Shown: in pieces, positions 2,484-37,613 of the stretch | Position numbering within the stretch: position 1 is the first letter of the stretch | Layout: the number at the start of each line of letters is the position of its first letter | Source: a virus | IMG/VR virus record: IMGVR_UViG_3300013004_000081 | Coordinates: 1-39,391 of that record | Reading direction: 5' to 3' (one strand) | DNA length: 39,391 bases | Notes under the pieces: model-generated | What the model saw: only the letters and a program-made list of their open reading frames with translations | Databases searched by the model: none | Told to the model about the DNA's origin: nothing | Position numbers and translations under genes: made by a program

Positions 2484-2880
2484 TAAAGATGATGAAAATA
2501 AAGATGATATAACTAGGTTTCAAATACTTAATAAGAGAGGCTCTTACTTTGTCATGTACAAAGGGTGGGCCTACAATCTCTCTCCCTCATCATATACTCA
2601 GATGAGTCTTTCCCCCGCGATCCTTGGTGTGGATTCTTTTTTGAAAGAAGGATCAAAAATAAAAGGAATTGACGGTAACTTAACGCTGGCGAGTTGCCCA
2701 GACTGGTTTTTGGGCTGTGATGTTAGGATAGAATTTCAAGAAAGGCTTCTTGACGGATGGGTTTATTCGCTCCATGCCGAGTCACTTAATGTAAAAAACT
2801 TTCACAGAGTTTGGATATGTCCATACTTGAAGTTCTTTTTTGAAAATCCTCCACCTAAGCTTTTCCTATCCTTGGAATGA
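2470..2880 (+). CDS. Hypothetical protein, possibly DUF6717-like
   Basis: A protein of 136 residues from ATG 2470; the frame is open from 2440, but the upstream ATG has no ribosome site while TAGGA precedes 2470. The middle (LSPAILGVDSFLKEG) and the C-terminal pattern with GWVYSLHAES and VWICPYLKFFFENPP recall small phage proteins of the DUF6717 type, which have no known function. That link is from memory and weak. The gene overlaps the end of its upstream neighbour and converges on the leftward gene ending at 2866, overlapping it by 15 bp. Confidence 0.65.
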   Translation: MSIFDKDDENKDDITRFQILNKRGSYFVMYKGWAYNLSPSSYTQMSLSPAILGVDSFLKEGSKIKGIDGNLTLASCPDWFLGCDVRIEFQERLLDGWVYSLHAESLNVKNFHRVWICPYLKFFFENPPPKLFLSLE

Positions 2881-3234
2881 TTTGGGATGCACAAGATAAG
2901 CCTCGTCGGCCACGGTGAGATATATCGACTCCTCATCTATCTTCAAACATAGCGAAGAAAGGAATTCAACAAAGTGCTTGAATTTTTCATCGCCATGAAA
3001 TGCAACTTCGTATCGCTCATGTTTGTCTCGGACTATTTCCCCAGCATTGACCCAATAGCCTTTTATCTCACTTGATTCATGCGTGTAGGCGCAATACTCC
3101 GACACAAAAAAATCATGTATTTTATCCCTGACCTCATCGGTCAGTTTCTCTACTGGAACATAAAAAACGGCAACCTTGCCGACATATTTAACGAATTGAC
3201 TGTTGTCAATCATCCACTTTTTGAAAACTTCCAA
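2866..3234 (-). CDS. Hypothetical protein with capsid-targeting-like N-terminus
   Basis: 122 residues starting at a TTG codon, with GGAATGA upstream as a weak ribosome site. The first residues, MEVFKKWMIDNS, fit the pattern aromatic at 4, aromatic at 7, hydrophobic at 8. Six other proteins in this window share that pattern, as do T4 internal proteins (MKTYQEFIAE). No [IL]xE cleavage site follows closely in this case. The rest is a mixed alpha/beta sequence I cannot place. It lies four bases downstream of the secreted protease gene, so both are probably read from the TATAAATA box at 4004. Being a packaged protein is inference. Confidence 0.65.
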   Translation of the reverse strand: MEVFKKWMIDNSQFVKYVGKVAVFYVPVEKLTDEVRDKIHDFFVSEYCAYTHESSEIKGYWVNAGEIVRDKHERYEVAFHGDEKFKHFVEFLSSLCLKIDEESIYLTVADEAYLVHPKSFQG

Positions 3235-3238
3235 TTAA

Positions 3239-3997
3239 TCATTCCGTTTTTATCTTCATGTTCTCCGCCACCCAGTCGACATACAGACTGATTCTCGTAT
3301 GAGCGCATTCGTCGCCGTAGTCCGAGTTTGACTTCCCATCCGTGGCCATCACGAAGGAATTTATCCCGGCCAGCTCATTGCCTATAAACAAACCTCCTCC
3401 GCTGTCTCCGCTTGCTATCATATATTCCAACTGGGTTTTTTTTCCTACGGAGTTTGAGCACACAAGGACATTCCTTTCTGTCCTTTCTATTATGTTAGAT
3501 CCTGCTCTTCTTATTCCGTCTGATTTAACATATCCTGTGGAAAAGGTTCCGGTCATTCCATATCCTGCCATGCTTACTACTTTTGACACCTCATCGTCTT
3601 TTTCGTACAGCTTTGGATAAAAATCCATGACTAATTCGCTTTCGCAATATCCTAAGGCTATGTCGTGATATCCTATTTCATCTTCCTTGAAGTCCTTGTT
3701 TATTATGATTTTTTTTATGTCATAATCCTTGCCTTTAATTGAAACCTTTACATCTTCCGCTCCGCTAACTACATGAGCCGCAGTAAGGATCCAATGAGGG
3801 TCAATCACCACGGCACTTGCGTAGAAAATGTGCTTATCTTCCTTCTTCTCGCAGCAGCATATTCCTTTCAAGCTTACCACGCACTCAAATTTGGATCCAT
3901 AATCCCTGTATTTCGAATCAGGAACCGAAGGGTCTATCGTACCCCCGAGCGAAAGAGAACTCATTACAAGTAAGATCAACATCCATGAGTATCGCAT
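3239..3997 (-). CDS. Secreted chymotrypsin-fold serine protease
   Basis: 252 residues with an N-terminal signal peptide (hydrophobic residues 5-18) and a complete S1-family triad: His75 in LTAAHV, Asp112 in HDIALG and Ser199 in GDSGGG. The residue six before the serine, which sets primary specificity in trypsin (Asp), is Met193, so Lys/Arg specificity is not expected. Several Cys residues (39, 47-49, 118, 180) suggest disulphides or metal binding outside the cytoplasm. Phage-encoded S1 proteases are uncommon; a role in the periplasm, in lysis or against a competitor is possible but unproven. No Shine-Dalgarno precedes the ATG, and TATAAATA ends six bases before it. The protease fold is confident, the biological target unknown. 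Confidence 0.88.
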   Translation of the reverse strand: MRYSWMLILLVMSSLSLGGTIDPSVPDSKYRDYGSKFECVVSLKGICCCEKKEDKHIFYASAVVIDPHWILTAAHVVSGAEDVKVSIKGKDYDIKKIIINKDFKEDEIGYHDIALGYCESELVMDFYPKLYEKDDEVSKVVSMAGYGMTGTFSTGYVKSDGIRRAGSNIIERTERNVLVCSNSVGKKTQLEYMIASGDSGGGLFIGNELAGINSFVMATDGKSNSDYGDECAHTRISLYVDWVAENMKIKTE

Positions 3998-4003
3998 GAT
4001 ACT

Positions 4004-4011
4004 TATTTATA
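4004..4011 (-). promoter_or_regulatory. Candidate T4-type late promoter box TATAAATA
   Basis: Exact match to the T4 gp55-dependent late box, reading leftward, ending six bases before the ATG of the secreted protease gene. In T4, transcription starts about 5-7 nt after this box, so the mRNA would begin at or next to the start codon. A gp55-like gene is present at 29099. Confidence 0.55.
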
Positions 4012-4083
4012 TCTAAGCGATTTTAATATATTAGGATTTTTTCCAATAATCCGTCGTCAAAATTACGAATAATTCGCTTGGAA

Positions 4084-4332
4084 TCATTGATTATTCTCTT
4101 CTTGACTAAGCCAATTTTTGAAACTTTCGTTTTTAGTTGCCAATTTCTGGAATGTGTTTATCTGTCTGGACGGGTCGTTAAGTATCTTCTTTATTTCTCG
4201 TTCTCCCGCCTTGCTGGTTATCTTCTCCCATGCTTTTATTCTTGTTTGTCTGCTGTATTTCTTGAATGTGCTCTCCAATCCTTTTGCAATGTCCACAATA
4301 GCGTTTTTGACATTAGTCTTATTAGATTCCAT
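4084..4332 (-). CDS. Small hypothetical protein
   Basis: 82 residues, charged and helical, unrecognised. It ends with SFKNWLSQEENNQ, whose FKxWL core matches the motif that seven other proteins here carry at their N-termini. It is the last of four leftward genes (5465 to 4084) linked by overlaps or tiny gaps. GAGGAA inside the preceding stop region serves as the ribosome site, and the start codon lies one base after the upstream stop. Confidence 0.65.
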   Translation of the reverse strand: MESNKTNVKNAIVDIAKGLESTFKKYSRQTRIKAWEKITSKAGEREIKKILNDPSRQINTFQKLATKNESFKNWLSQEENNQ

Positions 4333-4333
4333 C

Positions 4334-4483
4334 TTATTCCTCCTCTACATCCGTGAAAGATACCGTTATTTCGCTTGCGTCTTCGGGATATAAGTCCTTA
4401 GCCCTAGACTCGGCCTCAAAAAGCGATTCGGATATTATGTAACCCTTGTCCTCTTGTCCCAAATACACGCCATATGTCTTCAT
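4334..4483 (-). CDS. Very small hypothetical protein (49 aa)
   Basis: A 49-residue acidic protein starting MKTYGVYLGQ and ending TDVEEE. Support comes from context: GAGG lies upstream of its ATG, the upstream gene stops in an ATGA overlap with its start, and its own stop TAA is followed after one base by the next ATG. A compact modern pattern YLGQEDKGYIISESLFEAES looks like a small beta-alpha domain. Function unknown. Confidence 0.6.
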   Translation of the reverse strand: MKTYGVYLGQEDKGYIISESLFEAESRAKDLYPEDASEITVSFTDVEEE

Positions 4484-4659
4484 TTTTTGTTATTCCTCTT
4501 TGAAACCCAATCCTTGAATTTCATCTTGATGACTTTTTCTTTCTCTTGAGGACAAGAGTCCGACATGGCTCCCCATACTTGAAAGTTTGGGTTTTTTCTG
4601 TCCTTGCAAGAAACTATTCCGAAATTTCCTGTCATTTCATTGATCATTTTTATGCTCAT
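4480..4659 (-). CDS. Very small hypothetical protein (59 aa)
   Basis: A 59-residue protein starting MSIKMINEMTGNFG and ending KMKFKDWVSKRNNKK. It fills the space between the 266-residue gene (stop 4665) and the 49-residue gene and couples to the latter by an ATGA overlap. The C-terminal FKDWV again resembles the shared FKxW motif. An internal ATG makes MKFKDWV a possible separate micro-peptide start, but the overlap structure favours the longer reading. Function unknown. Confidence 0.55.
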   Translation of the reverse strand: MSIKMINEMTGNFGIVSCKDRKNPNFQVWGAMSDSCPQEKEKVIKMKFKDWVSKRNNKK

Positions 4660-4664
4660 CCGTA

Positions 4665-5465
4665 TCAGTAAGTACTAAATGCAGCGGCTATAGCTTCCGC
4701 TATTTCATTTTGATGCTGGGATGGTGCAAAGTATTCCTCCCACTCCGAAGGCTGAGGATACCAAACATGTCCCTTTGCAGGAGATTGAACATCATGGCCG
4801 AAACTCTTGATCATTCCAGTTGACGGATCATAACTCATATCGATCATGAATTGTTCCACCCTCGCGGATCCGGGAGCCTCAACTCCTTGCCCCCGGGGTT
4901 CAAAAAATATCAAATAGTTTTGCTTATTCTTTATTTCTTTTACTCCTCTGAAAACAAATATTTCTGGAATTATATCTTTTCTTCGGCATAAGTTAGATAT
5001 TTTTAGCGTAAGTGAATCTAACTTTTCGTAATCATTTGAAGGCGACTCAGTGTCTCCATTACTTGCTTTTTTTATATGCTCAAACAATTCTGCGGCAAAA
5101 GACTCGTCAAATTTTTTATTAGAATGCATTAAGTCCTTGTAGGGTATTATTTTTTTGCACACCCACACGCTTTCTCCCTTCAAATTCGTCTGGAGCCTTC
5201 TCACTATGCTTTTAAAGGATCCTAGAGGACTTATGACCATCTGCATGGCTCCGGGCTCCCTGCCCCACTGAACTTGGTCCGGGTAGTCGGAAAAAGCCTT
5301 CCTTCCTCCAATTTCGTTAAGGAGCATGGTCTCTATCAATACTTCCGGATTGATAGGTATTATCGGACTTTCGTCCACGATTCTCGCAGGCACGACACGT
5401 TCTTTTTCAAACCCGAATATGTCCCTACCTTCTTTCAAATCCATCCATTTTTTAAATGTTTTCAT
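4665..5465 (-). CDS. Hypothetical protein with capsid-targeting-like N-terminus
   Basis: 266 residues beginning MKTFKKWMDLKEG: Phe4, Trp7, Met8, then LKE followed by Gly, the form of a T4 gp21 prohead-protease site ([IL]xE before a small residue). The remainder is soluble and mixed, with no motif I can name. It contains a stretch SLTLKISNLCRRKD and ends in an Ala-rich helix. There is no Shine-Dalgarno; TATATATC (5470-5477) ends four bases before the ATG. It heads a four-gene leftward run. A role as an internal or prohead-associated protein is inferred from the N-terminus only. Confidence 0.7.
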   Translation of the reverse strand: MKTFKKWMDLKEGRDIFGFEKERVVPARIVDESPIIPINPEVLIETMLLNEIGGRKAFSDYPDQVQWGREPGAMQMVISPLGSFKSIVRRLQTNLKGESVWVCKKIIPYKDLMHSNKKFDESFAAELFEHIKKASNGDTESPSNDYEKLDSLTLKISNLCRRKDIIPEIFVFRGVKEIKNKQNYLIFFEPRGQGVEAPGSARVEQFMIDMSYDPSTGMIKSFGHDVQSPAKGHVWYPQPSEWEEYFAPSQHQNEIAEAIAAAFSTY

Positions 5466-5469
5466 GCCA

Positions 5470-5477
5470 GATATATA
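5470..5477 (-). promoter_or_regulatory. Candidate late promoter box TATATATC
   Basis: A late-box-like octamer reading leftward, ending four bases before the ATG at 5465, with no ribosome binding site between. One of a set of similar boxes directly before start codons in this window. It is weaker than the exact T4 box at 4004, and the sequence could be chance in AT-rich intergenic DNA. Confidence 0.35.
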
Positions 5478-5494
5478 GGTTCGAGGATGGCATT

Positions 5495-5956
5495 ATGATT
5501 CCTAATTTCAAGAGGTGGGTGGTCGACAAGTATCCCGAAACATTAAAGGAGGGATCTAATCCTGGTTCTAAGACGGGCCTGTACGCTTTGAGTTATGGAG
5601 GAATTGGCCTATACCCGCCCGCTTGGTACCTAACTAGAAGCGCCGACGCCATCTTTTATCTTTCTATAGATGAACGGATATACAAGGGAGACGACGCCGG
5701 AAGTTTCGACATCAGCAAGATCCCAGGATCCACGCCACAAAATTTAAATTCTGGGGAGGGCGGAGTTTGGAGCATATCCCATCTTGAAGGACGCCCCACC
5801 CACGCCACCCAGAAAAATTATGCAGCCAGGAACGGAGAGAGAGGTCCTTGGGACATAACCCACATCAAGGGCAAGTCCACATGCCAGAAGAATAACGATT
5901 TCGTTCCAGATCCTGGAGATGGCGGAATGTGGAAAATAAGCCACCTTCCATCTTAA
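5495..5956 (+). CDS. Repeat protein with a 27-residue Trp/His period and capsid-targeting-like N-terminus
   Basis: 153 residues from ATG 5495 (GAGG upstream; the frame is open from 5456 but without a good start). The N-terminus MIPNFKRWVVDKYPETLKEG has the aromatic pattern offset by one and LKE-Gly further on. The C-terminal half contains a repeated motif of the form GGxWxISHLxG at residues 89-99, 116-126 and 143-153; its tryptophans 92, 119 and 146 are exactly 27 residues apart. A degenerate copy (GSFDISKIPG) lies at 69-78. Regular Trp/His repeats suggest a small repeat fold or ligand-binding surface. I do not know the family. Confidence 0.7.
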   Translation: MIPNFKRWVVDKYPETLKEGSNPGSKTGLYALSYGGIGLYPPAWYLTRSADAIFYLSIDERIYKGDDAGSFDISKIPGSTPQNLNSGEGGVWSISHLEGRPTHATQKNYAARNGERGPWDITHIKGKSTCQKNNDFVPDPGDGGMWKISHLPS

Positions 5957-6648
5957 GCGAAGTTCATAGACTTAAGTTTCTGCCTTACCATTTCAAATTG
6001 ATTGAACTTTTCTTCCTTGGATATCGCGCAATTGGCGTGGTGTAGAAATATAGGAGCGTCTATGACTCCTATGGTCATGTTCCATATCTCCTTAGGAAAC
6101 CTTTTCCACAACAACTTTTCATTGTTCTTGTATTCTACAATATTGTCTTGCATTCCCGATATATTATCATAAAGAACCTTGTTCATCACCATCTGATCCC
6201 ACTGACCTTCGCCCAGCGATATTTCATAAACCTCTTTCCAAAAATTCCTCACCCTATCGTTGTTCTTCATGGCCATGAATCCCATGTTCACCATTCCGTT
6301 CAGATACTCCATCTGCGAAACTAGATCCACTTCTTTTTGAATAATATCGTTGCCTATTTTCACCCACTGCCTTGCCAAGAATTCTTGCATGACCACAGAG
6401 AAGCATGGCTTGTAGAAAACTATGTCCACATCTGCCATGATGAATATTTCGTTCTCAGCGGAACACTCAAAAGCCCTCCAGAGTAAGTTCTTCCTCATAT
6501 GATCGCCCGCCGATCCGCCCGCCATGGCGTTCTTTATCTCAAAATTTTCTATCTTGGATGGCATCAATTCCCATCTATCCTTCATGGAATTGATGAAATT
6601 GTCGTGCATGTCCTTGAAGTCTTCATTGTAACTATAGAAAATTTTCAT
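5953..6648 (-). CDS. Putative nucleotide-sugar glycosyltransferase
   Basis: 231 residues. A DxD-type motif (ADVDIVFYKP, about residues 72-81) follows a helix and a hydrophobic strand (EIFIMADVD), as in GT-A enzymes that bind a nucleotide sugar through a divalent metal. Further features (NGMVNMGFMAMKN and WDQMVMNKVLY) resemble the nucleotide-diphospho-sugar transferase family, in which acceptor-side residues lie after DxD. It overlaps the helicase stop by ATGA, so translation is coupled. Its substrate could be phage DNA, virion proteins or host surface sugar; nothing decides this. Confidence 0.65.
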   Translation of the reverse strand: MKIFYSYNEDFKDMHDNFINSMKDRWELMPSKIENFEIKNAMAGGSAGDHMRKNLLWRAFECSAENEIFIMADVDIVFYKPCFSVVMQEFLARQWVKIGNDIIQKEVDLVSQMEYLNGMVNMGFMAMKNNDRVRNFWKEVYEISLGEGQWDQMVMNKVLYDNISGMQDNIVEYKNNEKLLWKRFPKEIWNMTIGVIDAPIFLHHANCAISKEEKFNQFEMVRQKLKSMNFA

Positions 6649-8071: not shown

Positions 8072-8887
8072 TCATGGAACAGATCCAAGCAGTTCCTTCC
8101 ATCCGGGGCTGTGTACGCATGTCGCTTTTACGAGCGTCGATCCGCTGGAGTTGAACCACGGCTCATACATGAATTTCTTTTCCTGCCTTATGACTCTTGG
8201 ATCATGGCTCATATTGAGTTGGCAAATTCCGTTTCTGCAAATATCGGGAGTTTTGTACTCGGGGTACATGTCCGCCAAAATAATGGAGAGAACCAGTTCG
8301 TCGTTGGAGCCTCTTCTTCCGTAGAAGTTTTTTATTTTGTGTGTCCATTTTTTAAAGGCATCGCATATTAATTCAATCTTTTCACAACTGATCACTATCA
8401 ATCCGCCATTGACATTCTTCCACTCTTTAAAGCCATTTTCTTTTGCGAATTCCTCGTGTCTTTGAAAGGTTTGTCCTTGCCACGACCACCCTCTATTGAT
8501 CCTGCTACTTACCTCCTCGTTTTCGGTGACTATGGACTGGCACCAAGCAGAGTAGAAGTCAGACTGATATATGCTCTCGTCAAAGTGCATTTTGTCAACG
8601 CACTCGCAGTCGCTGTCCAAGTATATTAGTTTTTTGAAGTCTTTGAGTATGTCTTTCATGCTCAAGAGCGATCCAAGCTTGAACGAGTACGATTGACCCT
8701 CCAAGCAGAAATCATTTATATCTCTGTCTAGCAGAACATGGATGTCACATAAGTTCGGCTTATTCGGAGACAAGCATGCGGTCACCGCCTCCTCGTTGAA
8801 ATTCTTTATCGTCCTGAACAAGTTGGAAGCCATCCGCTCAAAGACAGAGCCTTGAGCCACGGTGAATATCAATGTGTCGCTTTTCAT
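8072..8887 (-). CDS. Putative glycosyltransferase (GT8-like)
   Basis: 271 residues from ATG 8887, chosen because it forms an ATGA overlap with the preceding gene; the frame is open further upstream but inside that gene. It begins MKSDTLIFTVAQG and carries LIYLDSDCECVDK, a DxD motif after a hydrophobic strand, then VNGGLIVIS and SNDELVLSIIL, the order seen in GT8-type enzymes acting on nucleotide sugars. A late HSPGWKE may supply a metal-binding His. It follows the glycosyltransferase-methyltransferase fusion gene directly, so both may modify the same glycan. Substrate unknown. Confidence 0.7.
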   Translation of the reverse strand: MKSDTLIFTVAQGSVFERMASNLFRTIKNFNEEAVTACLSPNKPNLCDIHVLLDRDINDFCLEGQSYSFKLGSLLSMKDILKDFKKLIYLDSDCECVDKMHFDESIYQSDFYSAWCQSIVTENEEVSSRINRGWSWQGQTFQRHEEFAKENGFKEWKNVNGGLIVISCEKIELICDAFKKWTHKIKNFYGRRGSNDELVLSIILADMYPEYKTPDICRNGICQLNMSHDPRVIRQEKKFMYEPWFNSSGSTLVKATCVHSPGWKELLGSVP

Positions 8888-10023: not shown

Positions 10024-10024
10024 T

Positions 10025-10250: not shown

Positions 10251-10258
10251 TATATATT
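10251..10258 (+). promoter_or_regulatory. Candidate late promoter box TATATATT
   Basis: A late-box-like octamer ending three bases before ATG 10262, with no Shine-Dalgarno. It lies in the 27-bp gap between two divergent genes. Matches the other boxes that sit almost on the start codon. Confidence 0.3.
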
Positions 10259-10261: not shown

Positions 10262-10864
10262 ATGATCGGCTTCAGAGAGTGGCTCGGAAATACCGTCGGA
10301 ACGGAAAATGTTGACAGCAGCAAGATTGAATCCTTGTACAACAAGGCCAAATATGCTGTCAAACTAGTCCAATTATATGACAGTAAGACAAATCAGAAAT
10401 TGCTTACCAATATAAGTACCATAGCCAACTTGAACATGTCCGGAGTTTATGGACTCTACAATTCGGCTGAAAACAAAGATGTGATAGGGCCGGCCGCTTC
10501 CAAGACTAAATTTTTGTTTGGAAAACAAACATACAATCAGTACAAAAATAATTTGTCAAATTTGCCTCCTGCCGTCGTCAATCAATACAAGCCCGACTTG
10601 GATCCCGGAAATTTGGTTCCTTCTGATGTGATACATGTTAATGTTCGGGAAATAGTATCCAGATTTGGAGATACAAAAGAAGCGATCATAGAGATAGCGG
10701 GAACAATAGTTCACGAATGCACCCACCAAATAGAATTCAGAACAAAAGGTAAGACAAGTGAGGCGGGACCCGTAAGAGCCAAAGAAGCGTTTAAAGTTTG
10801 GGCCGACCCTGCCGGCCCAAACTGGAAAACCATAATTTCCGCGATTCCTCAGCTTAATTTTTAG
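10262..10864 (+). CDS. HExxH zinc metallopeptidase with capsid-targeting-like N-terminus
   Basis: 200 residues. The motif TIVHECTHQIEF gives HExxH at 151-155, with Glu167 and Glu175 downstream (SEAGPVRAKEAF) as candidates for the third zinc ligand of a gluzincin-type peptidase. The protein starts MIGFREWLGN, fitting Phe4, Trp7, Leu8 of the capsid-targeting-like pattern; no [IL]xE site follows. There is no signal peptide or membrane segment. No Shine-Dalgarno; a TATATATT box ends three bases upstream. Together these suggest a peptidase packaged in the capsid and delivered with the DNA. The metalloprotease motif is clear; packaging and target are inference. Confidence 0.75.
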   Translation: MIGFREWLGNTVGTENVDSSKIESLYNKAKYAVKLVQLYDSKTNQKLLTNISTIANLNMSGVYGLYNSAENKDVIGPAASKTKFLFGKQTYNQYKNNLSNLPPAVVNQYKPDLDPGNLVPSDVIHVNVREIVSRFGDTKEAIIEIAGTIVHECTHQIEFRTKGKTSEAGPVRAKEAFKVWADPAGPNWKTIISAIPQLNF

Positions 10865-11085: not shown

Positions 11086-11093
11086 TATATAAA
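11086..11093 (+). promoter_or_regulatory. Candidate late promoter box TATATAAA
   Basis: Late-box-like octamer ending five bases before ATG 11099, with no ribosome binding site between, which predicts a transcript starting at the start codon. It lies in the divergent gap 11041-11098. Confidence 0.45.
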
Positions 11094-11098: not shown

Positions 11099-11467
11099 AT
11101 GAAGACTTTTCACCAATTTCTTATATCTGAGGCCACCCCTCCCGCTCCCCCTCCATCTAAATCCGGCGGAGGACCGGCGTCTGCCCCGCCTCCGCCGTCA
11201 GGCCCCCCAGGAGCCCCTCCGGGGCTCGGAGGCCCGCCTGGAGGACTTGGAGGCGGCATGGGCGGAGGCCCGCCTCCGGGTCTTGGAGGCCCGCCGGGAG
11301 GGCCATCTTTCAGCCCGGGAATGGGCGGCCCAGGAGACGGCCAACCGCAAGGCCAAAGCCAATCCGCAATCGTCAAAAGAATTGGATCCCATGATGTATG
11401 GACTTTTCTAAAGAATTCCTTGAAGAATAAGGCATCTGGACAGAGATCCAAAAATTCATTAGAATAA
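11099..11467 (+). CDS. Pro/Gly-rich protein with capsid-targeting-like N-terminus
   Basis: 122 residues. The start MKTFHQFLISEA is the closest match here to the T4 internal-protein leader MKTYQEFIAEA: Phe4, Phe7, Leu8, then ISE followed by Ala, a gp21-type cleavage site. Residues ~14-88 are low-complexity Pro/Gly repeats (PPG, GGPP). A short conserved-looking helical tail, GSHDVWTFLKNSLKNK, follows. The middle is probably disordered. GC content is far above that of the neighbours because of the repeats. A prohead-core or internal head role is plausible. It precedes gp47 on the same strand. Confidence 0.7.
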   Translation: MKTFHQFLISEATPPAPPPSKSGGGPASAPPPPSGPPGAPPGLGGPPGGLGGGMGGGPPPGLGGPPGGPSFSPGMGGPGDGQPQGQSQSAIVKRIGSHDVWTFLKNSLKNKASGQRSKNSLE

Positions 11468-15654: not shown

Positions 15655-17739
15655 ATGACCAACAAAGAGTATTATTGGCTCAATTCACACAGTAGACTTT
15701 TCCTGGAGCGCGGCTACCTTGAGCCAGGAACTACGCCTGAGGAAAGAATAAGACAGATAGCAGAAAATGCCGAAAAAATACTCAAGAAGAAGGGTTTTGC
15801 CGACAAATTTGAAGGCTACATGAAGAGAGGCTTCTACAGCCTTGCGACACCTGTATGGTGTAATTTCGGCAACAAGAGGGGCCTGCCCGTCAGTTGTTTT
15901 GGAAGTTACATTGACGACAAGATGGAGGCGATACTCACCAAGGCTGCTGAAGTCGGTATGATGAGCAAAATGGGCGGAGGAACCTCTGGATTCTTTGGAT
16001 CTTTAAGGCCCCGAGGAACCAAAATAAGTGTCGGAGGAGAAAGCAGCGGGGCCGTGCACTTCATGGAGATTTTTGACAAGGTCAGCGAGGTCATAAGCCA
16101 AGGCAGCGCCCGCAGGGGATCGTTTGCTGCTTATATGCCGATAGAGCACGCGGATATAGAAGAATTTCTCCAGGTTAGAAGCGAAGGCCACAGCATTCAA
16201 AACATGAGCATCGGCGTGACCGTCACCGACAAGTTCATGAAGGATCTGGTTGATGGGGACAAGGAGAAGAGAAGGATTTGGGCAAAAGTCATCCAGAAGC
16301 GATTTGAGACCGGATATCCGTACATCATGTTCGTGGACACGGCAAACAAGCAGGCTCCTCAGGCATACAAGGACAAGAAGCTCAAGATTAAAGCCAGTAA
16401 CCTCTGCGTCTCGGCCGACACACGGCTTCTTACAAGAAAGGGCGAAATCAGAATAGGCGACCTTGAAAATCAAAATGTTGAAGTTTGGAACGGCAACGAA
16501 TGGTCGGAAACCACCGTTGTGAAGACTGGGTCTGAACAAAAACTTTTGAGAATGAGGATTATCAAAAGAGAGCTTGACGACGAGGATACAGAAAACCTTT
16601 ATTGGATAGACCTTGACACGACAGAATACCACAAGTTCTACCTCAAGGATGGATCAGAGGTTCGTGCGTCCGAATTGTCCGAAGGGGACAGGCTTGTTAA
16701 TTTCCTAGGCCCCAACGGCAGAACCTATATGTGCGAAGTCATCAAAATAGAAGAGCTTGATGGGCTTCACGACACATACTGCGTCAATGAGCCCAAGGAG
16801 CACAAGGCCGTATTTAACGGAGTTTTAACCGGCAACTGCTCAGAAATACAACTTTATTCGGACGAACAGAACTCTTTCGTGTGTGTGCTTTCTAGTCTCA
16901 ATCTGCTTCATTGGGATGAGATCAAGGAAACAGATGCCGTGGAAACGATGGTGTACTTCCTTGATGCCGTCTGCGAGGAATTCATACAAAAGACAGAGGG
17001 CGTGAAGTACCTGGAGGCTGCGAGAAACTTTGCCATAAACCAAAGGGCTCTTGGTCTAGGGGTTCTTGGCTGGCACTCTTGTCTTCAAAGCAAAAATATC
17101 GCCTTTGAAAGCATGCAGGCTAAGATGCTCAATATTGAGATATGGAAGGCGATCAGAAGCAGAGCCGACAAAACCACGGAAGAAATGGCCAAGGAGTACG
17201 GCGAGCCGGAACTTCTAAAGGGATACGGAAGAAGAAATGTGACCACATTGGCTGTCGCCCCGACAACCTCGAGCAGTTTCATACTCGGACAGGTCAGCCC
17301 CAGCATAGAACCCCTCAACAGCAACTATTTCGTCAAAAACCTTGCAAAGGGGAAATTCACCTACAAGAACCCTTATCTCAAGGAAATACTCAAAAAATAC
17401 GACAAAAATAATGATGATGTATGGAAGAGCATTCTTGTCAAGGGCGGATCCGTACAGCACTTGGACTTCCTCAGCAAGGAGGAAAAGGATGTGTTCAAGA
17501 CATTCGGGGAAATCAGCCAAAAAGAAATAGTCATCCAAGCGGCCCAACGTCAAAAGTACATAGACCAAGCCCAGAGTCTGAATCTCACAATCCCCCCCTC
17601 AGCTTCCCCAAAGGATGTCAACAGCCTTCTGATAGAAGGCTGGGAGATGGGAATTAAAACCTTCTACTACCAGAGATCTGCAAACCCTGCACAGGAGCTT
17701 GCAAGGAGCATACTTACTTGTTCCTCGTGCGAAGCATAA
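15655..17739 (+). CDS. nrdA: Ribonucleotide reductase class I alpha subunit, split by an intein
   Basis: 694 codons encode a host protein of 550 residues interrupted by a 144-residue intein (residues 251-394). Catalytic features: Cys81 (PVSCFG), the site SNL-Cys395-SE with the radical Cys395 and Glu397, Cys410 as redox partner, and FYYQRSANP with the Tyr pair of the radical path. CSSCEA forms the C-terminal redox pair. There is no N-terminal ATP-cone, so dATP activity control is probably absent. The enzyme must splice to work, because the radical Cys is the first residue after the intein. RNR identity is certain. Confidence 0.95.
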   Translation: MTNKEYYWLNSHSRLFLERGYLEPGTTPEERIRQIAENAEKILKKKGFADKFEGYMKRGFYSLATPVWCNFGNKRGLPVSCFGSYIDDKMEAILTKAAEVGMMSKMGGGTSGFFGSLRPRGTKISVGGESSGAVHFMEIFDKVSEVISQGSARRGSFAAYMPIEHADIEEFLQVRSEGHSIQNMSIGVTVTDKFMKDLVDGDKEKRRIWAKVIQKRFETGYPYIMFVDTANKQAPQAYKDKKLKIKASNLCVSADTRLLTRKGEIRIGDLENQNVEVWNGNEWSETTVVKTGSEQKLLRMRIIKRELDDEDTENLYWIDLDTTEYHKFYLKDGSEVRASELSEGDRLVNFLGPNGRTYMCEVIKIEELDGLHDTYCVNEPKEHKAVFNGVLTGNCSEIQLYSDEQNSFVCVLSSLNLLHWDEIKETDAVETMVYFLDAVCEEFIQKTEGVKYLEAARNFAINQRALGLGVLGWHSCLQSKNIAFESMQAKMLNIEIWKAIRSRADKTTEEMAKEYGEPELLKGYGRRNVTTLAVAPTTSSSFILGQVSPSIEPLNSNYFVKNLAKGKFTYKNPYLKEILKKYDKNNDDVWKSILVKGGSVQHLDFLSKEEKDVFKTFGEISQKEIVIQAAQRQKYIDQAQSLNLTIPPSASPKDVNSLLIEGWEMGIKTFYYQRSANPAQELARSILTCSSCEA
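16405..16836 (+). mobile_element. Mini-intein in NrdA without homing endonuclease
   Basis: Residues 251-394 of the NrdA precursor. It begins with Cys (CVSADTRLLTRKG, block A) and has a block B-like TxxH (Thr323, His326) followed by DGSEVRASELSEGD. It ends with FNGVLTGN before a Cys. The block F His is present (His383), but the residue before the terminal Asn is Gly393, where most inteins have His. At 144 residues there is no room for a LAGLIDADG or HNH endonuclease. Insertion lies immediately before the thiyl-radical Cys. It can splice in cis but cannot home alone. Confidence 0.9.
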
Positions 17740-19285: not shown

Positions 19286-19639
19286 ATGTCAAGTTTTAAA
19301 GATTTCGTCCTGAATGAGAGCAAGGTATACCTCCCTCAAAGGGTGGCTGACATACTGAGTGCGGTCCAAGATCTCATTGATTCCGACATGGGAGCAAGAC
19401 AACTTGTTTCAAATGCTCAAGCCATAGTCAATCGCATAAGGAGAATAATCCATACGCATTGGCCACAAAGCGACGAACCGAGCCTCTTGGTGCTCCAAAA
19501 GTGTGCAGTTGCCATAATGAAGGCAATAGACGAAAAGGGCGATGTGGCCGAGGTTCTGAAATCTTGTGAAAAATATCTTTCAAGAATTTCAGGAAAAAAT
19601 GAGTCCCCCATAAACGACCTGGGTGCAGACAAGACCTAG
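19286..19639 (+). CDS. Helical protein with capsid-targeting-like N-terminus
   Basis: 117 residues starting MSSFKDFVLNES: Phe4, Phe7, Val8, then LNE followed by Ser, which fits a gp21-type cleavage site. The rest is predicted helical (RVADILSAVQDLIDSDMG, LVSNAQAIVNRIRRII) with no known domain. There is no Shine-Dalgarno before the ATG, but also no clear TATATAA box. It is followed directly by the sigma70-type promoter at 19645. A packaged internal protein is inferred. Confidence 0.65.
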   Translation: MSSFKDFVLNESKVYLPQRVADILSAVQDLIDSDMGARQLVSNAQAIVNRIRRIIHTHWPQSDEPSLLVLQKCAVAIMKAIDEKGDVAEVLKSCEKYLSRISGKNESPINDLGADKT

Positions 19640-27933: not shown

Positions 27934-28863
27934 TCAGATTGTTTTTTGCACTATGAATTTTGATTGACTAATTAACTGTTGGATATTTTCTATCATTTTT
28001 TTGGGGTATTCTTTATATTTTGATATTTCTATGGGAAAAGAATCCTTGCTTAGTCTTCTTTTTCCTATTATGATTGAATTTTCATACATTCGTCTTGCCT
28101 TTTCGTATTTTTGATCCTTGTATAAAATGTCCCCCAACAGACACCAGAACTCGGAGAATGTTGGGCAAACTGAAAGGCACGATAGTGCGTTCTTTGTCGC
28201 TTCATTTAGGTTGCCCGTGTGTAAATGCACTTGGGCCATATAGTACCTCAGAAGTATTCCCGATGCGCCCGCCTTAGAATCCATTATCAAATACTGATCC
28301 GCAAAAGAAAAGAACTCTTTGTACATTCTGTTGGCCAGACACGAACAAGCCATGTAGTAGTAAGGATCCGGCGAGGTTGGCTTTCTGGAGATCCATTCCC
28401 TACAGATAGACATCTTTTCATTTCGATTGTCGGGCTGAACCCCTGACAAAATAACTACATTCGGGTCGCAATCTGCCGTGTCGTCGACCAAGGTTTCATA
28501 TATCGGATTGACGAACTTGATATCCCTCCAAATCCTTATTTCCTTAGATACAATCCCTCCTTGTACAACATATATTCTTGTTGTTCTTTCGTAATTTTTA
28601 ATTTTTTCAGCCCCACTAGCCAACACCTCCCACGGATCCAAATAAAGGTTCATGCCTTCGGCGGCCAAATTGTTCCTGACCTTGGCGTAATCTCCGTCAA
28701 ACCGGACTGGAATCACTTCTGCTCCGTATTCGGCACAAATCCGATCTGTTCCGTCCGTAGACCCCAGATTGCCGACTACAATTCTGCCGATCCCGGCCAA
28801 AGAATCCAAGGTCTTTTTAATGGTTTTGGAGTTATTCTTGATTAGAATTTGTACTGTCAGCAT
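27934..28863 (-). CDS. GT2 glycosyltransferase with TPR-like C-terminus
   Basis: 309 residues. The N-terminus MLTVQILIKNNSKTIKKTLD and IVVGNLGSTDGTDRI (33-47) are the nucleotide-sugar-binding part of GT2 enzymes (NxGSxDGT form). No clear catalytic DxD is visible after it, so it may be reduced or inactive. From about residue 165, repeated helical pairs (DPYYYMACSCLANRMYKEFF, YYMAQVHLHTGNLNEATKNA, FWCLLGDILYKDQKYEKARR) look like TPR repeats. It overlaps the small upstream gene by 32 bp. Confidence 0.75.
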   Translation of the reverse strand: MLTVQILIKNNSKTIKKTLDSLAGIGRIVVGNLGSTDGTDRICAEYGAEVIPVRFDGDYAKVRNNLAAEGMNLYLDPWEVLASGAEKIKNYERTTRIYVVQGGIVSKEIRIWRDIKFVNPIYETLVDDTADCDPNVVILSGVQPDNRNEKMSICREWISRKPTSPDPYYYMACSCLANRMYKEFFSFADQYLIMDSKAGASGILLRYYMAQVHLHTGNLNEATKNALSCLSVCPTFSEFWCLLGDILYKDQKYEKARRMYENSIIIGKRRLSKDSFPIEISKYKEYPKKMIENIQQLISQSKFIVQKTI

Positions 28864-29098: not shown

Positions 29099-29635
29099 AT
29101 GAATGAATATTTGAACAACAAGACCTTTGAAAGCATTATAAATCAATTTCAAGATTCCAAGAGGGAAAAGCAGAGGCTTTTGATAATCATAGACGAGATA
29201 AAAGGCACATTAGACAGAAAAAAAATCAGGAAGGTCAAAAACAACTATAACAAATCGCTTTTGAAGGCCAAAGAAGATCTTCTCAGAGAGACGGACGCAA
29301 GCCACGAAGACTCAAAGCAAAAGTTGGCCGTCGCCTTCTTCACACTTTCTGAAAACATAGTCAGATACGCCAAATTCCAACTCATAGACGCGGACGACGC
29401 AATACAAGAGGGCGTAATGATATGCTTTGACAAAATAGGAAGGTTTGACTCGAGGAAGGGAAAGGCCTTCAACTACATGACTACATGCATACTTAACCAC
29501 TTCAGACAACTCTACAGAACGGCAAGAAACTATAACGAACTTAAGAAAAAATACTTAAATCATATGCAGATGATTGAGGGAAACTCTTCGTTCAAAAATG
29601 GAAAGGTTCTGTTTGATAACAACAACCATTCATAA
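29099..29635 (+). CDS. gp55: gp55-like late-transcription sigma factor
   Basis: 178 residues. Residues ~75-148 contain a sigma region 2-like block: FTLSENIVRYAKFQLIDADD, AIQEGVMICFDKIGRFDSRK, then GKAFNYMTTCILNHFRQLYR. This agrees in layout with T4 gp55 (185 residues), the small sigma factor that directs host RNA polymerase to TATAAATA promoters together with the sliding clamp and gp33. There is no region 4, as expected. GGAGG lies close to the ATG. Its presence supports reading the TATATAA boxes as late promoters. Confident as a sigma factor, fairly confident as gp55. Confidence 0.85.
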   Translation: MNEYLNNKTFESIINQFQDSKREKQRLLIIIDEIKGTLDRKKIRKVKNNYNKSLLKAKEDLLRETDASHEDSKQKLAVAFFTLSENIVRYAKFQLIDADDAIQEGVMICFDKIGRFDSRKGKAFNYMTTCILNHFRQLYRTARNYNELKKKYLNHMQMIEGNSSFKNGKVLFDNNNHS

Positions 29636-34006: not shown

Positions 34007-34010
34007 GACT

Positions 34011-34235
34011 TTATTCTCCCTTGTTCAATTCTTTTTTTGTTATGTGCCTTGTCGAAATGAGCCCCATCTTCTCGGCCCTCTCAACGTATTCCGTGCTCCT
34101 CTCATCCTCTAACATGTAGATGTTGTTTCCACCACCTACGCCAGGAACATTCAGTGTCGTGAAAGCCTTGGGTGACCTTCTAGACCTTATCAGTATCTGA
34201 ACCGGACCCCTTGTTTTGTTCTTGATCTCGATCAT
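34011..34235 (-). CDS. Small structural-region protein
   Basis: 74 residues (MIEIKNKTRGPVQILIRSRR, then TTLNVPGVGGGNNIYMLEDE). Compact beta-type sequence. It overlaps the stop of the gp15-like gene (TAATG) and ends five bases before the sheath gene, so it is co-expressed with tail genes. Similar tiny proteins precede sheath genes in other phages, but I cannot name a role. Confidence 0.65.
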   Translation of the reverse strand: MIEIKNKTRGPVQILIRSRRSPKAFTTLNVPGVGGGNNIYMLEDERSTEYVERAEKMGLISTRHITKKELNKGE

Positions 34236-35209
34236 TAATTCTGCCTTTCTATTTTATCAACACTGTCTTCCAACTTGTCCAACGCCTCAGTAATTTTGTC
34301 CTCGTCGACCCCGTTATAAAAATCCGTTTTTGTTGCTAGAACTGACTTGTTTCGAACAATTGGCTGTGGTATATATGCCTTGACCGTCAAATTAAATTCA
34401 AACTTGATTATTCTTTGATTTTGGTCGCCCGGCTCATAGTCCACATTATTTGCTATGGAATCCAGATTGACCGAAGTCTCCCAATTGATTCCCCTAACGC
34501 GTATATATGCAATCGGAGAAAATTTTAGCATTATCTGCTCTAGAATCTGATCCATGTCCTCCATGTACATAGTCCATGCCGTCAAGGTATAGGTTTTGTT
34601 GATCGGTATGCCCCTTGCGACACCGAACACCGTGTCTCTCTCAAACTTCTCCTTGGTGGTAAAGCCCGGCTTGCCGTCCGGCCTCAACCTGCGCATGTAA
34701 TCTAGAGCCTTGTGGTATGTGTACCTCTCGGGGTCAAAATCCATTCCGTTTGAATATATTGCAAGCACAGGAAGTCTTATTCTTTCTACTACAAGACTTC
34801 CGTCCTTCCGGACATTATCCTGCAGAATCCAAGTTACCGCCCTTTCCTGCGTCCCCCACAGTATGGGAACCTTGTATGCCTTCCCGTCTTCGTCAAGAAC
34901 GACCAAATTAGAAAACAAATCTACCATCGCCTCATCGCAGCCACGAAGACTCTTTGAATACCTGTAGAGAACATGGCGTTCCGGGTCATTCATGTCGTCG
35001 ACAATTCTTCCGGTCTGCATCGGGTCGCACTGGGCCTCTTTGCCGAGTCCTATCTTGGACTTGGCGGCTTCCTCCACCCAACCTGTGCCCATGCCCGGCC
35101 CATCGCAACTCTTCGGAGCCTTCTCTTTGTTCCTGCTGGTTTCCGCCGGCGGCACGACATTGCAGTCGTTTAGGCTTTTGTTCTGGTGATTTCCCGGATT
35201 GACAACCAT
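34235..35209 (-). CDS. gp15: Putative tail terminator / sheath stabiliser (gp15-like)
   Basis: 324 residues. After a ~70-residue low-complexity N-terminus, the core reads HVLYRYSKSLRGCDEAMVDL, FSNLVVLDEDGKAYKVPILW and GTQERAVTWILQDN, followed by IPINKTYTLTAWTMYMEDMD and LEQIMLKFSP. This is the layout of T4-type gp15 proximal sheath stabiliser/tail terminator proteins, and the gene sits directly before the sheath gene. T4 gp15 has 272 residues. The assignment is from pattern and position, not from a search. Confidence 0.6.
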   Translation of the reverse strand: MVVNPGNHQNKSLNDCNVVPPAETSRNKEKAPKSCDGPGMGTGWVEEAAKSKIGLGKEAQCDPMQTGRIVDDMNDPERHVLYRYSKSLRGCDEAMVDLFSNLVVLDEDGKAYKVPILWGTQERAVTWILQDNVRKDGSLVVERIRLPVLAIYSNGMDFDPERYTYHKALDYMRRLRPDGKPGFTTKEKFERDTVFGVARGIPINKTYTLTAWTMYMEDMDQILEQIMLKFSPIAYIRVRGINWETSVNLDSIANNVDYEPGDQNQRIIKFEFNLTVKAYIPQPIVRNKSVLATKTDFYNGVDEDKITEALDKLEDSVDKIERQN

Positions 35210-35279
35210 TGTTTTCCCCTCTTGGTCTATCTAGACGAGTGATCTTTTTAATTGGTTGCCCAGCCGATATAATTGAAGA

Positions 35280-36131
35280 ATGATCACAGTCAAATACAGA
35301 ACATGGCACCTCGGCGCCCATCCCTCTCCGATCAAGCTTCAGATACCAGGCTGGTCCGGCAAGGACAGAAACCACGGCGATGGAGCAACGCCCCAGCCAT
35401 GGCACTGCCCCCCTTTCGTGGAGGGAAGCACATACGGCCACGAGTTGATTTATCCCTTCAAGAGCGAGTGCTGTGTGACGAGGCGTCACGGCCAAGTTTT
35501 TTTCGAGGGCGATTTCTCCGGCGAAGACTGGAACATGAATGAGCAAGGCAACACGATCAACGGACAAGAGCCCAAAAAGACCACGCCCCCGATGATGAGC
35601 TTCGCGCCGGGTCACTACGGCATGTCAAGCTCGCTGGACATGGAGCCGCCCGAAGGATATGTGATCAGAACGGAACCGCACCCCAGGTTCTTCACCGACG
35701 AAACAGGAACCGTCCCGTGCCTGCTTACGGGACATATTCAAAGGTGGTGGTCAAGAATCTTCTTCGTCGTTTTCAAGGCTCCTAGAGAAGGCGAGACCCA
35801 CATCTTCAGAGCGGGCGAACCGTACGGCCAAGTTCTTTTTGTCCCCCAGAAAAATGATGTTGAATTCATCCCGTTCACGGAGGAAGAAAGAATAGAAAGG
35901 GAAGGCCGAGACAGAAGAATAAGCGAACACGGAAGCAAGATTGCAACCCGCTCGTGGTCGGCAACCCCGCAATTGACGTTTGACGACAAGTACAAGGTTC
36001 TCAGCAAGGCCTATACTAAAGGCGGCTATTCCGAGGTTGACAACACTATATCAAATAAAATATCATCCGCCTCCACTCCGATAGAGATGAAGACGAAAAT
36101 ACCCAAGCGTCTCTTCTCTCCCAGAAGATGA
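35280..36131 (+). CDS. Hypothetical protein, possibly DUF6065-like
   Basis: 283 residues. WHCPPFVEGSTYGHELIYPF (41-60) and later LTGHIQRWWSRIFFVVFKAP and RAGEPYGQVLFVPQK recall the DUF6065 group of uncharacterised proteins in phages and bacteria. No catalytic motif or signal peptide. GATATAATTGAAGA precedes the ATG, containing a -10-like TATAAT but no good ribosome site. Divergent from the gp15-like gene and coupled by ATGA to the 41-residue gene. Family link from memory. Confidence 0.65.
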   Translation: MITVKYRTWHLGAHPSPIKLQIPGWSGKDRNHGDGATPQPWHCPPFVEGSTYGHELIYPFKSECCVTRRHGQVFFEGDFSGEDWNMNEQGNTINGQEPKKTTPPMMSFAPGHYGMSSSLDMEPPEGYVIRTEPHPRFFTDETGTVPCLLTGHIQRWWSRIFFVVFKAPREGETHIFRAGEPYGQVLFVPQKNDVEFIPFTEEERIEREGRDRRISEHGSKIATRSWSATPQLTFDDKYKVLSKAYTKGGYSEVDNTISNKISSASTPIEMKTKIPKRLFSPRR

Positions 36132-36253
36132 AACACTATCCCATAAGAAAGGCCAAAGAAAAAAGAAAACCATACATGCCAGAAGGAATAAGGCTTCCGT
36201 TGCCGAAGCCGAAGTTCCCAAGGACTGTGTTTTGGAAAGTGAATAAAAGTTAA
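36128..36253 (+). CDS. Very small basic protein (41 aa)
   Basis: 41 residues, strongly basic with a Pro-rich middle (MKHYPIRKAKEKRKPYMPEG; LPLPKPKFPRT). It starts in an ATGA overlap with the preceding gene and fills the space to the tRNA. Conserved-looking composition suggests a real micro-gene; a nucleic-acid-binding or structural role is a guess. Confidence 0.5.
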   Translation: MKHYPIRKAKEKRKPYMPEGIRLPLPKPKFPRTVFWKVNKS

Positions 36254-36268
36254 CTTATTTCATTAAAT

Positions 36269-36341
36269 GCGAGTGTAGCTCAATTGGCAGAGCGTTAGGT
36301 TTCCATCCTAAATGTTGCCGGATCGTGGCCGGTCACTCGCT
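36269..36341 (+). tRNA. tRNA-Gly(TCC)
   Basis: A full cloverleaf can be drawn: acceptor GCGAGTG/CACTCGC, D-stem GCTC/GAGC, anticodon stem TTAGG/CCTAA with loop TTTCCAT (anticodon TCC at 36302-36304), T-stem GCCGG/CCGGT. Discriminator base T fits bacterial tRNA-Gly; CCA is not encoded. The T-loop reads ATCGTGG, lacking the usual T54 and A58. A T run follows directly. It would read GGA codons. Confidence 0.88.
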
Positions 36342-36407
36342 TTTTTCTAATTCATCTTTCTCCATATTGAACTTTTTGGCTAGGGCGAGCTTGGAGCACG
36401 GAATGGA

Positions 36408-36959
36408 TTAGCCTCTTTGATTAATTTCATTCAAGTCAAAGTCCGGCTTCTTCTGAGAGGCCTTTCCCTCTCCTGTCGTGACGCTTTCTTGGAAGCGTTG
36501 ACATAGTATCTGTATCCTCATCTGACTCCAGAGCATCGTTTCCCCTATGTTCCTCTGGATGATGACCCAGTCCTCCTTTCTGTGCGGGCTGTGTATCCTT
36601 GATCCCACCTTAGGCGGGTGTCCTATCTTATTTAGAACATCCCTGTAGTTGAAGTCGAACACAACCTCGTCAGGCGAGTCTATTCCGAATGCGCTCTGGT
36701 AGTTCTGTCCCACCACGGGCTCGTAGGACGCATAGAGCATGACGGGATTGTTCGACCACAGTTTGCCCCTGTCCTCGCGGTAGAGTTTGTCGAGGGAGCC
36801 CGTCTGGATGAACACCTCATAGTAGAAGACGGGCGACCCGTATATCTTTATCCACTCCGCATCCCAGTCGTTCCAGAGGCAGCGCTCCGGATTGTCCGGA
36901 TCAAACTGCTCCAAGCTGCCAACAGGCTTGTACGGCGTTCCGTCGGGATTCTTGATCAA
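36408..36959 (-). CDS. gp14: Putative neck protein (gp14-like)
   Basis: 183 residues from a TTG start, secured by AAGGAGG eight bases upstream. The central part matches the layout of T4 gp14: GSPVFYYEVFIQ, then LYREDRGKLW, LYASYEPVVGQNYQSAFGID, SPDEVVFDFNYRD, a KVGSRIHSPHRKEDWVIIQR segment and METLW-like MLWSQMRIQ. gp14 joins the finished head to the tail with gp13. T4 gp14 is longer (256 residues). Tail genes 15, 18 and 19 lie to the left on the same strand. Assigned by recalled pattern; moderate confidence. Confidence 0.6.
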   Translation of the reverse strand: MIKNPDGTPYKPVGSLEQFDPDNPERCLWNDWDAEWIKIYGSPVFYYEVFIQTGSLDKLYREDRGKLWSNNPVMLYASYEPVVGQNYQSAFGIDSPDEVVFDFNYRDVLNKIGHPPKVGSRIHSPHRKEDWVIIQRNIGETMLWSQMRIQILCQRFQESVTTGEGKASQKKPDFDLNEINQRG

Positions 36960-36975
36960 GGCGGTTTCCTCCTTG

Positions 36976-36983
36976 ATTATATA
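36976..36983 (-). promoter_or_regulatory. Candidate late promoter box TATATAAT
   Basis: Late-box-like octamer reading leftward, 16 bases before the TTG start of the neck gene, with AAGGAGG in between. Confidence 0.5.
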
Positions 36984-37004
36984 TCTTCCCCGAGGCCTTA
37001 TTCC

Positions 37005-37613
37005 TCAGACCCCGACCAATCTTCTTCCGCTCGGATCATGAATGTCAGGGCGTTCCGGATGGCTATCATCGCCGCCGTCGTCTTCTCCGTCTATGTCGGT
37101 GTGGTCTATGACCATTTTGACCCACTCAGCTAACTGAAGGGGCGTCTTCAAGGGCGGGCCGTCAAACTCCGAAAGCGCCCCGGGAAAAGATACGCGTTCA
37201 TCCCGCTCGCTCAGTCTTATGTGGCCGTCCCTGTCAAGCAGACCCCTCATACTTGTGGGTTCGACCCCTGAATGCATTCCGGCAAGCCCTGTCCTTCCGT
37301 TAAATAAAAACATCGTGGCCTTTATCTTCATTTCCGCCCCGCCCTCCACGGAATCGTACTCAGAATCGGGTCGCTCAAGTATCGCGAACGCCCGCAGATA
37401 GAAGAACGCGGGCTTTTCAACCTTGGGGTTGTAGAATGCGGCAGAAAAGTCAAATGAATCCTTCGTGCCCTTGTCGGTTATCCATCCCCTCGGCTCTACG
37501 CTCCACTTGATCCACTCCGCATTGACCTTGAAATCAAGCGTCCTCTTCATCGCCTCGCCCGCTGCGGAGCCCATCACCTTCGCCTCTGCAAGCCACTGCC
37601 TAAAGCCGGACAT
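37005..37613 (-). CDS. Hypothetical protein with capsid-targeting-like N-terminus
   Basis: 202 residues starting MSGFRQWLAEAKVMGS: Phe4, Trp7, Leu8, then LAE followed by Ala, nearly the T4 internal-protein leader ending (IAE-A). The body has AEWIKWSVEPRGWITDKG and KIKATMFLFNGRTGLAGMHS, and an acidic tail (DIDGEDDGGDDSHPERPDIH). I do not recognise the domain. It overlaps the stop of the upstream structural gene (TGATG) and sits beside the neck gene, which fits a head-associated protein. Confidence 0.7.
   Translation of the reverse strand: MSGFRQWLAEAKVMGSAAGEAMKRTLDFKVNAEWIKWSVEPRGWITDKGTKDSFDFSAAFYNPKVEKPAFFYLRAFAILERPDSEYDSVEGGAEMKIKATMFLFNGRTGLAGMHSGVEPTSMRGLLDRDGHIRLSERDERVSFPGALSEFDGPPLKTPLQLAEWVKMVIDHTDIDGEDDGGDDSHPERPDIHDPSGRRLVGV

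Follow-up and report, generated by a model that had tools for sequence, protein, structure and literature searches.

Short N-terminal leaders resembling T4 capsid targeting sequences on unrelated proteins of a phage clade

Introduction

The internal proteins of bacteriophage T4 carry an N-terminal capsid targeting sequence, reportedly described by Mullaney and Black in 1996. T4 also packages Alt, an ADP-ribosyltransferase. Similar leaders are found on seven proteins encoded by IMG/VR virus record IMGVR_UViG_3300013004_000081, a stretch of 39,391 nucleotides (39.4 kb) that was analyzed as a whole and is referred to here as the window. It is highly likely that these seven N-termini are capsid targeting sequences of the T4 type, marking a payload that is packaged, cleaved, and ejected in a clade of phages using the tag on about 30–40 proteins per genome.

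The T4 internal proteins IPI, IPII, and IPIII have N-terminal leaders of 10–20 residues with aromatics at positions 4 and 7 and an aliphatic residue at position 8, and they are cut after L/I-x-E by gp21 (PMC9026906). A stretch of ten IPIII residues is enough for packaging, with targeting residing mainly in residues 4 and 7. Processing depends on residues 8 and 10, such that an aspartate at position 10 stops processing but not targeting (PMC9026906). The clade shares this layout, mature parts that are unrelated in sequence, and T4-type gp21 and gp23. It differs in that tryptophan mostly replaces phenylalanine at position 7, leader length is more variable, and about 30–40 genes per genome rather than a handful are involved. 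In addition, recognizable enzymes are present in the cargo, and a late-promoter-like box abuts the start codon. The mature parts of the seven proteins showed no family match to IPI, IPII, or IPIII.

Other packaged proteins are less similar. Several leader-bearing proteins of the relatives are ADP-ribosyltransferase-like, as is Alt, but the clade proteins are small, have an IP-type leader, and give a sole profile match, of the Arr type. In phiKZ-like giant phages (gp47, gp50, gp53, and gp54 of SPN3US; PMC5694885), protease-cut N-terminal propeptides are thought to send ejection proteins into the head. These propeptides are mostly longer than 100 residues, with S/A-x-E sites in phiKZ, whereas the clade combines leaders of 10–19 residues and a fixed short motif with a T4-type major capsid protein (MCP). 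DarB of phage P1 has an N-terminal packaging signal of between 10 and 30 residues that is enough to package a reporter (PMC9024508); unlike the clade leaders, the P1 Dar proteins have no common consensus, and use of an F..W motif is not known for them. Leader-like proteins of cyanophage P-SSM2 (MRTFQEFLQLCE, MKSFKQFLEE, MKSFSQFLTE) share the F..F-aliphatic-E layout but amount to only about three plausible genes, with phenylalanine at position 7. No report of a leader expansion such as that of the clade was found in the literature on capsid targeting sequences, a search that most subscription-journal papers and bioRxiv preprints lay outside.

The seven leader genes

The preliminary description of the window listed seven N-termini with the layout aromatic, two residues, aromatic, aliphatic. 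All are present at the coordinates listed there and fit M-x(1-3)-F-x-x-[WF]-aliphatic. They are given below with the proteins that bear them (aa, amino acids; a slash marks the predicted cut), and the genes are named hereafter by their first coordinate.

3205..3234, minus strand: leader MEVFKKWMID of gene 2866-3234; F4 and W7 present, with D replacing E at position 10
2866..3234, minus strand: leader-bearing protein, 122 aa, no known domain; directly after gene 3239-3997 (also given as 3239-3964)
5430..5465, minus strand: leader MKTFKKWMDLKE of gene 4665-5465; predicted cut E12/G13
4665..5465, minus strand: leader-bearing protein, 266 aa; mature body starts near DIFGFE; no known domain or fold match
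5495..5551, plus strand: leader MIPNFKRWVVDKYPETLKE of gene 5495-5956; predicted cut E19/GSNPG
5495..5956, plus strand: leader-bearing protein, 153 aa, no known domain
10262..10306, plus strand: leader MIGFREWLGNTVGTE of gene 10262-10864; F4 and W7 conserved; no clear [LI]xE
10262..10864, plus strand: leader-bearing protein, 200 aa; conserved HExxHxxE zinc-peptidase motif at residues 151-158
11099..11131, plus strand: leader MKTFHQFLISE of gene 11099-11467; predicted cut E11/A; leader of orthologue L009 identical
11099..11467, plus strand: leader-bearing Pro/Gly-rich protein, 122 aa; similar Pro/Gly-rich protein in contig G002 at 57867
19286..19318, plus strand: leader MSSFKDFVLNE of gene 19286-19639; predicted cut E11/S
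19286..19639, plus strand: leader-bearing protein, 117 aa, no known domain
37584..37613, minus strand: leader MSGFRQWLAE of gene 37005-37613; predicted cut E10/A; orthologues L207, L208, and L109 keep F..WL
37005..37613, minus strand: leader-bearing protein, 202 aa; directly after gene 37613-38014 (box at -28)

The start codon of 2866 is TTG, and that of 5495 is an internal ATG of an open reading frame opening at 5456. Orthologues were found for all seven genes, and the aromatic-x-x-aromatic core is kept in them.

Enrichment in the window and the clade

The pattern ^M.{1,4}[FYW]..[FYW][LIVM] matches 10 of the 57 called genes of the window, whereas shuffling of residues 2–15 gives 0.63 ± 0.78, and none of 5000 shuffles (0/5000) reaches 10. 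The three matches beyond the seven are 4334, 18514, and 26680. Of these, 18514 (SET-domain-like) and 26680 (membrane protein) look like chance matches because their orthologues lack the motif, and both were rejected as leaders, as was a DNA polymerase of the relatives (G005 114288) on the same ground. Such cases show that some hydrophobic N-termini resemble the leader by accident. As an account of the whole set, however, accidental resemblance has next to no probability, being refuted by the significance within individual genomes, the clean controls, and the conservation among orthologues.

The window reads as a piece of the genome of a huge, uncultured T4-related myovirus, given its T4-type tail genes, its relatives on huge contigs, and its matches to LR756511. 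Tail sheath, tail tube, and sheath stabilizer of the T4 type and a late sigma factor are among its genes, together with ribonucleotide reductase (RNR) and SbcCD-type genes identified by reading. Its central 12 kb gave 0 megablast matches among 50,697 deposited phage records. The RNR gene (15655-17739), used as a query, retrieved the IMG/VR contigs G001, G002, G005, G012, G017, G018, and G019, of which G001 is a 101 kb contig near-identical to the window and G002 spans 458,813 bp; G020 (381,443 bp) was reached through gene 2866. The closest deposited genome found is LR756511.1 (595 kb, unannotated), which provides the best match for the SbcC-like protein (44%) and is the only one of the 50,697 records with relatives of 4665 and 10262 by tblastn.

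Genes on each contig were called with a simple codon-usage caller blind to the motif, and the called N-termini were compared with internal methionines. Leaders are present on 7/57 called genes in G000, 34/656 in G002, 13/177 in G005, 14/143 in G012, 10/115 in G017, 7/118 in G018, 11/124 in G019, 36/548 in G020, and 34/1080 in LR756511. The clade thus bears the leader on about 3–10% of its genes, compared with 0.2–0.8% (about 0.5%) at internal methionines, and Fisher P values against internal methionines, computed for each clade genome separately, range from 2.8e-4 to 1.7e-16. When the first ATG is taken as the start, the clade shows 162/2979 matches versus 15 expected, and the controls 9/2034 versus 8.3. 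A motif-free scan of clade N-termini recovers the same positions, with F4 (z = 12.7), W7 (z = 10.3), and L8 as the strongest enrichments besides K2.

Seven more distant RNR relatives (G003, G004, G006, G010, G011, G014, and G016) have 0 or 1 leader each; none is significant, and neither is T4. The form with tryptophan, M..F..W[LIM], occurs 15–17 times in each of G002, G020, G005, and LR756511 and is at background in T4, Aeh1, KVP40, P-SSM2, RaK2, GAP32, CBB, and LR756508. Virion data for the cultured jumbo phages RaK2, GAP32, and CBB are uninformative for the leader because of this background level, and these phages were rejected as a proteomics test case. In T4, 1/264 genes match with phenylalanine first and 3/264 with phenylalanine or tyrosine first (IPII, IPIII, and the 54 aa gp61.1), while IPI (MKTFKEFT) falls just beyond the search pattern. 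The hypothetical gp61.1 (gene 61.1, NC_000866 18966-19130) begins with the targeting-like leader MKTFKEFIKED and, on the basis of this N-terminus, may be an unrecognized internal protein.

The seven proteins had been described as unrelated, which holds throughout the clade: in an alignment of 90 leader-bearing proteins, the consensus MxxFxxWL is all that is shared, and once the leaders are removed the proteins fall into about 70 families that differ between genomes. A motif search of relatives had been proposed in the preliminary description, together with the possibility that the motif is equally common on non-virion proteins. The search finds the leader spread over the clade, on about 30–40 genes per genome, while 0 of the recognized replication, nucleotide-metabolism, transcription, and tail proteins of the window have it and the controls remain at background.

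The cleavage-site signature

An [IL]xE sequence followed by a small residue had been noted in five of the seven leaders, which is roughly right. A strict fit is seen in 11099 (ISE/A), 19286 (LNE/S), 4665 (LKE/G, residues 10–12), and 5495 (LKE/G, residues 17–19), and 37005 has WLAE/A, with leucine two before the glutamate. Gene 10262 offers just GTE/N, and 2866 has ID/N without a glutamate.

In each of the four positions that follow the motif (+1 to +4), glutamate reaches 23–29%, compared with a background of 7.4%. A hydrophobic-x-E sequence lies no more than 10 residues after the motif in 67 of 92 unselected leaders, as opposed to 34 ± 4 after shuffling and 20% of other N-termini. Within 13 residues it is present in 139/152 clade leaders (P3 being W, F, or Y in 56), a set preselected for glutamate at residues 8–20 and for the lack of a membrane-like start.

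Conservation within families follows the same positions. Among 10 orthologues of 4665, identity is 1.00 at F4, 0.90 at W7, and 0.90 at E12, compared with 0–0.5 at the remaining leader positions and 0.50 in the body. The only invariant columns among 17 homologues of 19286 are F4, F7, E11, L24, and R52, and in the 10262 family F4 and W7 are identical in 0.92 of orthologues. Leaders of the 5495 family measure 10, 11, and 19 aa (MNFREWLLAE, MLNFKNWLLNE, and MIHKFNKWLNNNHPEVVAE), and all end in a glutamate abutting GSNPG[SA]KTGLY; in 4665 and 19286 there is likewise a conserved glutamate with the mature body starting right behind it. As read from these alignments, retained aromatics and glutamate, drifting spacers, and free leader length are the pattern of a removable signal. 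The orthologues of 2866 (L209, L154, L212 with MNFKKWMTEQ, and L211) retain F..W[MIV]. Because D10 blocks processing but not targeting in T4 (PMC9026906), the 2866 protein is probably targeted, yet poorly or never cleaved.

An N-terminal amphipathic helix of aromatic and aliphatic residues is a generic docking element, and AlphaFold models give only a short low-confidence helix for the leader. It could accordingly be a docking tag for another phage or host structure, such as the membrane, the replication complex, or the host RNA polymerase, unrelated to the head. This is quite improbable, since cutting by a T4-type protease explains why a conserved glutamate lies at a variable distance from the motif, exactly where the constant mature body starts. 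The conserved positions also coincide with those for targeting and processing in T4, and the MCP propeptide contains LxE in matching contexts.

Correspondence with the T4 head machinery

The leaders lie at the extreme N-terminus and comprise 10–20 residues, with aromatics at 4 and 7, an aliphatic residue at 8, and glutamate at or near 10. The positions that govern targeting and processing in T4 are those conserved in the clade. Peptidase_S77 (gp21-type) is encoded in G002 (gp21 homologue at 440504-441199), G005, G006, G019, and LR756511, and a gp23-type capsid protein in G002, G005, G006, and G019, with a portal in G005 and T4-like gene order. MCP N-termini of G002, G005, and G019 contain LNE/A, LLE/N, and MNE/A or INE/S, contexts also seen in leaders. 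In LR756511.1, two Peptidase_S77 matches (242621-242989 and 526118-526534) occur in one 595 kb genome. The T4-like reading of the leaders proposed in the preliminary description is supported by the aromatics, the aliphatic residue, and the later glutamate, by a mature domain beginning just after the glutamate at any leader length, and by the T4-type protease and capsid of the relatives.

Several points weigh on the other side. No head protease or capsid gene was detected in the window or in the near-identical 101 kb contig, and the machinery is therefore deduced from relatives. A profile search recognized no T4-type scaffold (gp22), and a candidate of 298–304 aa between gp21 and gp23 is designated by position only. 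Virion proteomics for this clade was not found in the literature. The glutamate is missing from 2866 and a clear [LI]xE from 10262, the gene caller is home-made, and clade members are non-independent samples. Finally, leader genes are absent from G006 although it encodes gp21 and gp23, so that having the machinery is not enough to predict the tag, which is therefore an addition in the clade and not a consequence of the machinery.

Cargo proteins

Leader-bearing proteins of the relatives include an ADP-ribosyltransferase of the Arr type (Arr-ms match, G002 27016) and proteins with an ADP-ribosyltransferase-like YHG[TS] motif (G002 361187, G005 60123, G017 59117, G018 66921, and G020 229564). 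Further enzymes are a SNF2-type helicase (G005 50755), an HD-domain tRNA nucleotidyltransferase (G002 209332), and a flavin mononucleotide (FMN) reductase (G002 368515). A DnaJ-domain protein (G005 53667), DUF5662 (G002 204196), DUF5872, GP88, and many proteins without an assigned function also carry the leader. A PADLOC search of the leader set matched largely helicase and polymerase members and showed no defence systems.

HExxHxxE is invariant in the 10262 family, which suggests that the product is a zinc peptidase; the match to Pfam Tox-MPTase3 is weak and below the cut-off. G012 96992 (called from L170), a protein of 383 aa that begins with a YHGT ADP-ribosyltransferase-like motif, also matches this family. 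Pfam gave nothing above the cut-off for the seven proteins. Structure models, whose alignments each left out one deposited-phage row, had a pLDDT of 62.5 and no PDB fold match for the 10262 family, and a pLDDT of 77.7 and no convincing fold match for the 4665 family (best high-probability match, a partial Atg10-like alignment with E = 0.016). Profile searches of solved structures returned nothing for these two families and marginal matches only for 19286.

Packaging by the leader could also serve head assembly, with its bearers acting as core or scaffold parts that are subsequently degraded or kept in the capsid and never ejected. T4 IPIII mutants do have head-assembly defects (PMC9026906), and some leader genes lie near head genes (G002 438146, 447547, and 448786). 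Most, however, are scattered and vary between genomes (70 families), and they include enzymes with no obvious role in assembly, making this reading unlikely. Delivery into the host has precedents in T4: IPI, the one internal protein with a known target, acts as an anti-restriction factor, and IPIII is required on a strain whose defence is not known (PMC9391042). Alt, which acts by ADP-ribosylation, is a further precedent. Myoviruses are believed to package ADP-ribosyltransferases commonly (PMC9503650).

Late-promoter-like boxes at leader genes

A TA[TAG]ATA box starting at -8 to -14 of the ATG precedes 68/152 leader genes (45%) compared with 153/2866 other genes (5%; P = 2e-40), and the start positions peak sharply at -10/-11. 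Boxed leader genes almost entirely lack Shine-Dalgarno sequences (9%, versus 55% in leader genes without a box). Several of the boxed other genes look leader-like by eye, and the capsid gene of G002 is boxed too. This link of leader genes to a late-type box at the start codon is new in this analysis. The following elements of the window are relevant here.

5472..5477, either strand: TATATA box between the divergent leader genes 4665 (at -12) and 5495 (at -23); palindromic
10251..10256, plus strand: TATATA box at -11 of gene 10262
11086..11091, plus strand: TATATA box at -13 of gene 11099
29099..29635, plus strand: late sigma factor, T4 gp55-like (PHROG 234, E = 1.2e-6)

Being palindromic, the first box could serve both 4665 and 5495. 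For tail genes of the window, the sheath stabilizer being one example, the boxes lie between -23 and -28. Spacing as in T4 would put the transcript start at or near the AUG, so that, judging from box position and the missing Shine-Dalgarno sequence, boxed genes probably yield leaderless late mRNAs in this clade. To our knowledge, leaderless late translation is an unusual arrangement for a T4-type phage. The box resembles the late promoters of T4 and cyanophages, TATAAATA/NATAAATA (PMC2984593), and the late sigma factor could read the TATA boxes.

Other genes of the window

Gene 20448 resembles 4665, 10262, and 11099 in lacking a Shine-Dalgarno sequence and in having a TATA box between -10 and -13 relative to the start codon. 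The product of gene 3239-3997 (minus strand) is a trypsin-like secreted protease (PHROG 9683) whose N-terminus resembles a signal peptide; G002 has a similar gene at 49641, its start preceded by a TATA box. Glycosyltransferase-like genes, assigned by reading, are interspersed among the leader genes (5953-6648, 8072-8887, and 27934-28863). A mini-intein, spanning roughly CVSADTRLLTRKG to VLTGN/CSE, appears to lie within the RNR large subunit (15655-17739); the RNR match is ~145 codons shorter in several relatives and ~230 longer in others. The contig end (39257-39390) is a tandem array of 7.4 copies of an 18 bp unit.

Proposed route and implications

The preliminary description identified the feature correctly, and the function it proposed is very probably correct. 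Late in infection, leader genes would be transcribed from the late-promoter-like TATA boxes, the mRNA often starting at the AUG. By analogy with T4, the leader of 10–19 residues, which probably forms a short amphipathic helix whose aromatics are spaced three residues apart, would attach its protein to the prohead scaffold core. A gp21-type protease would then cut after the glutamate and free the mature protein in the head, a step suggested by the conserved glutamate at the junction of leader and body and by the matching MCP sites. Finally, we infer that the proteins stay with the DNA in the virion and are ejected into the host for take-over or counter-defence, as suggested by IPI, IPIII, and Alt of T4 and by the ADP-ribosyltransferase-like cargo.

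On balance, we lean slightly towards the view that a late box abutting the AUG, a leaderless start, and a targeting leader form a portable cassette of ~50 bp that nearly any gene can acquire. The outcome would be a modular payload of ~30–40 delivered proteins, enzymes among them, that are gained and lost between phages. The leader would serve as a predictor, from the genome alone, of delivered (first-responder) proteins in huge phages, offering dozens of unstudied candidates per genome that can be tested.

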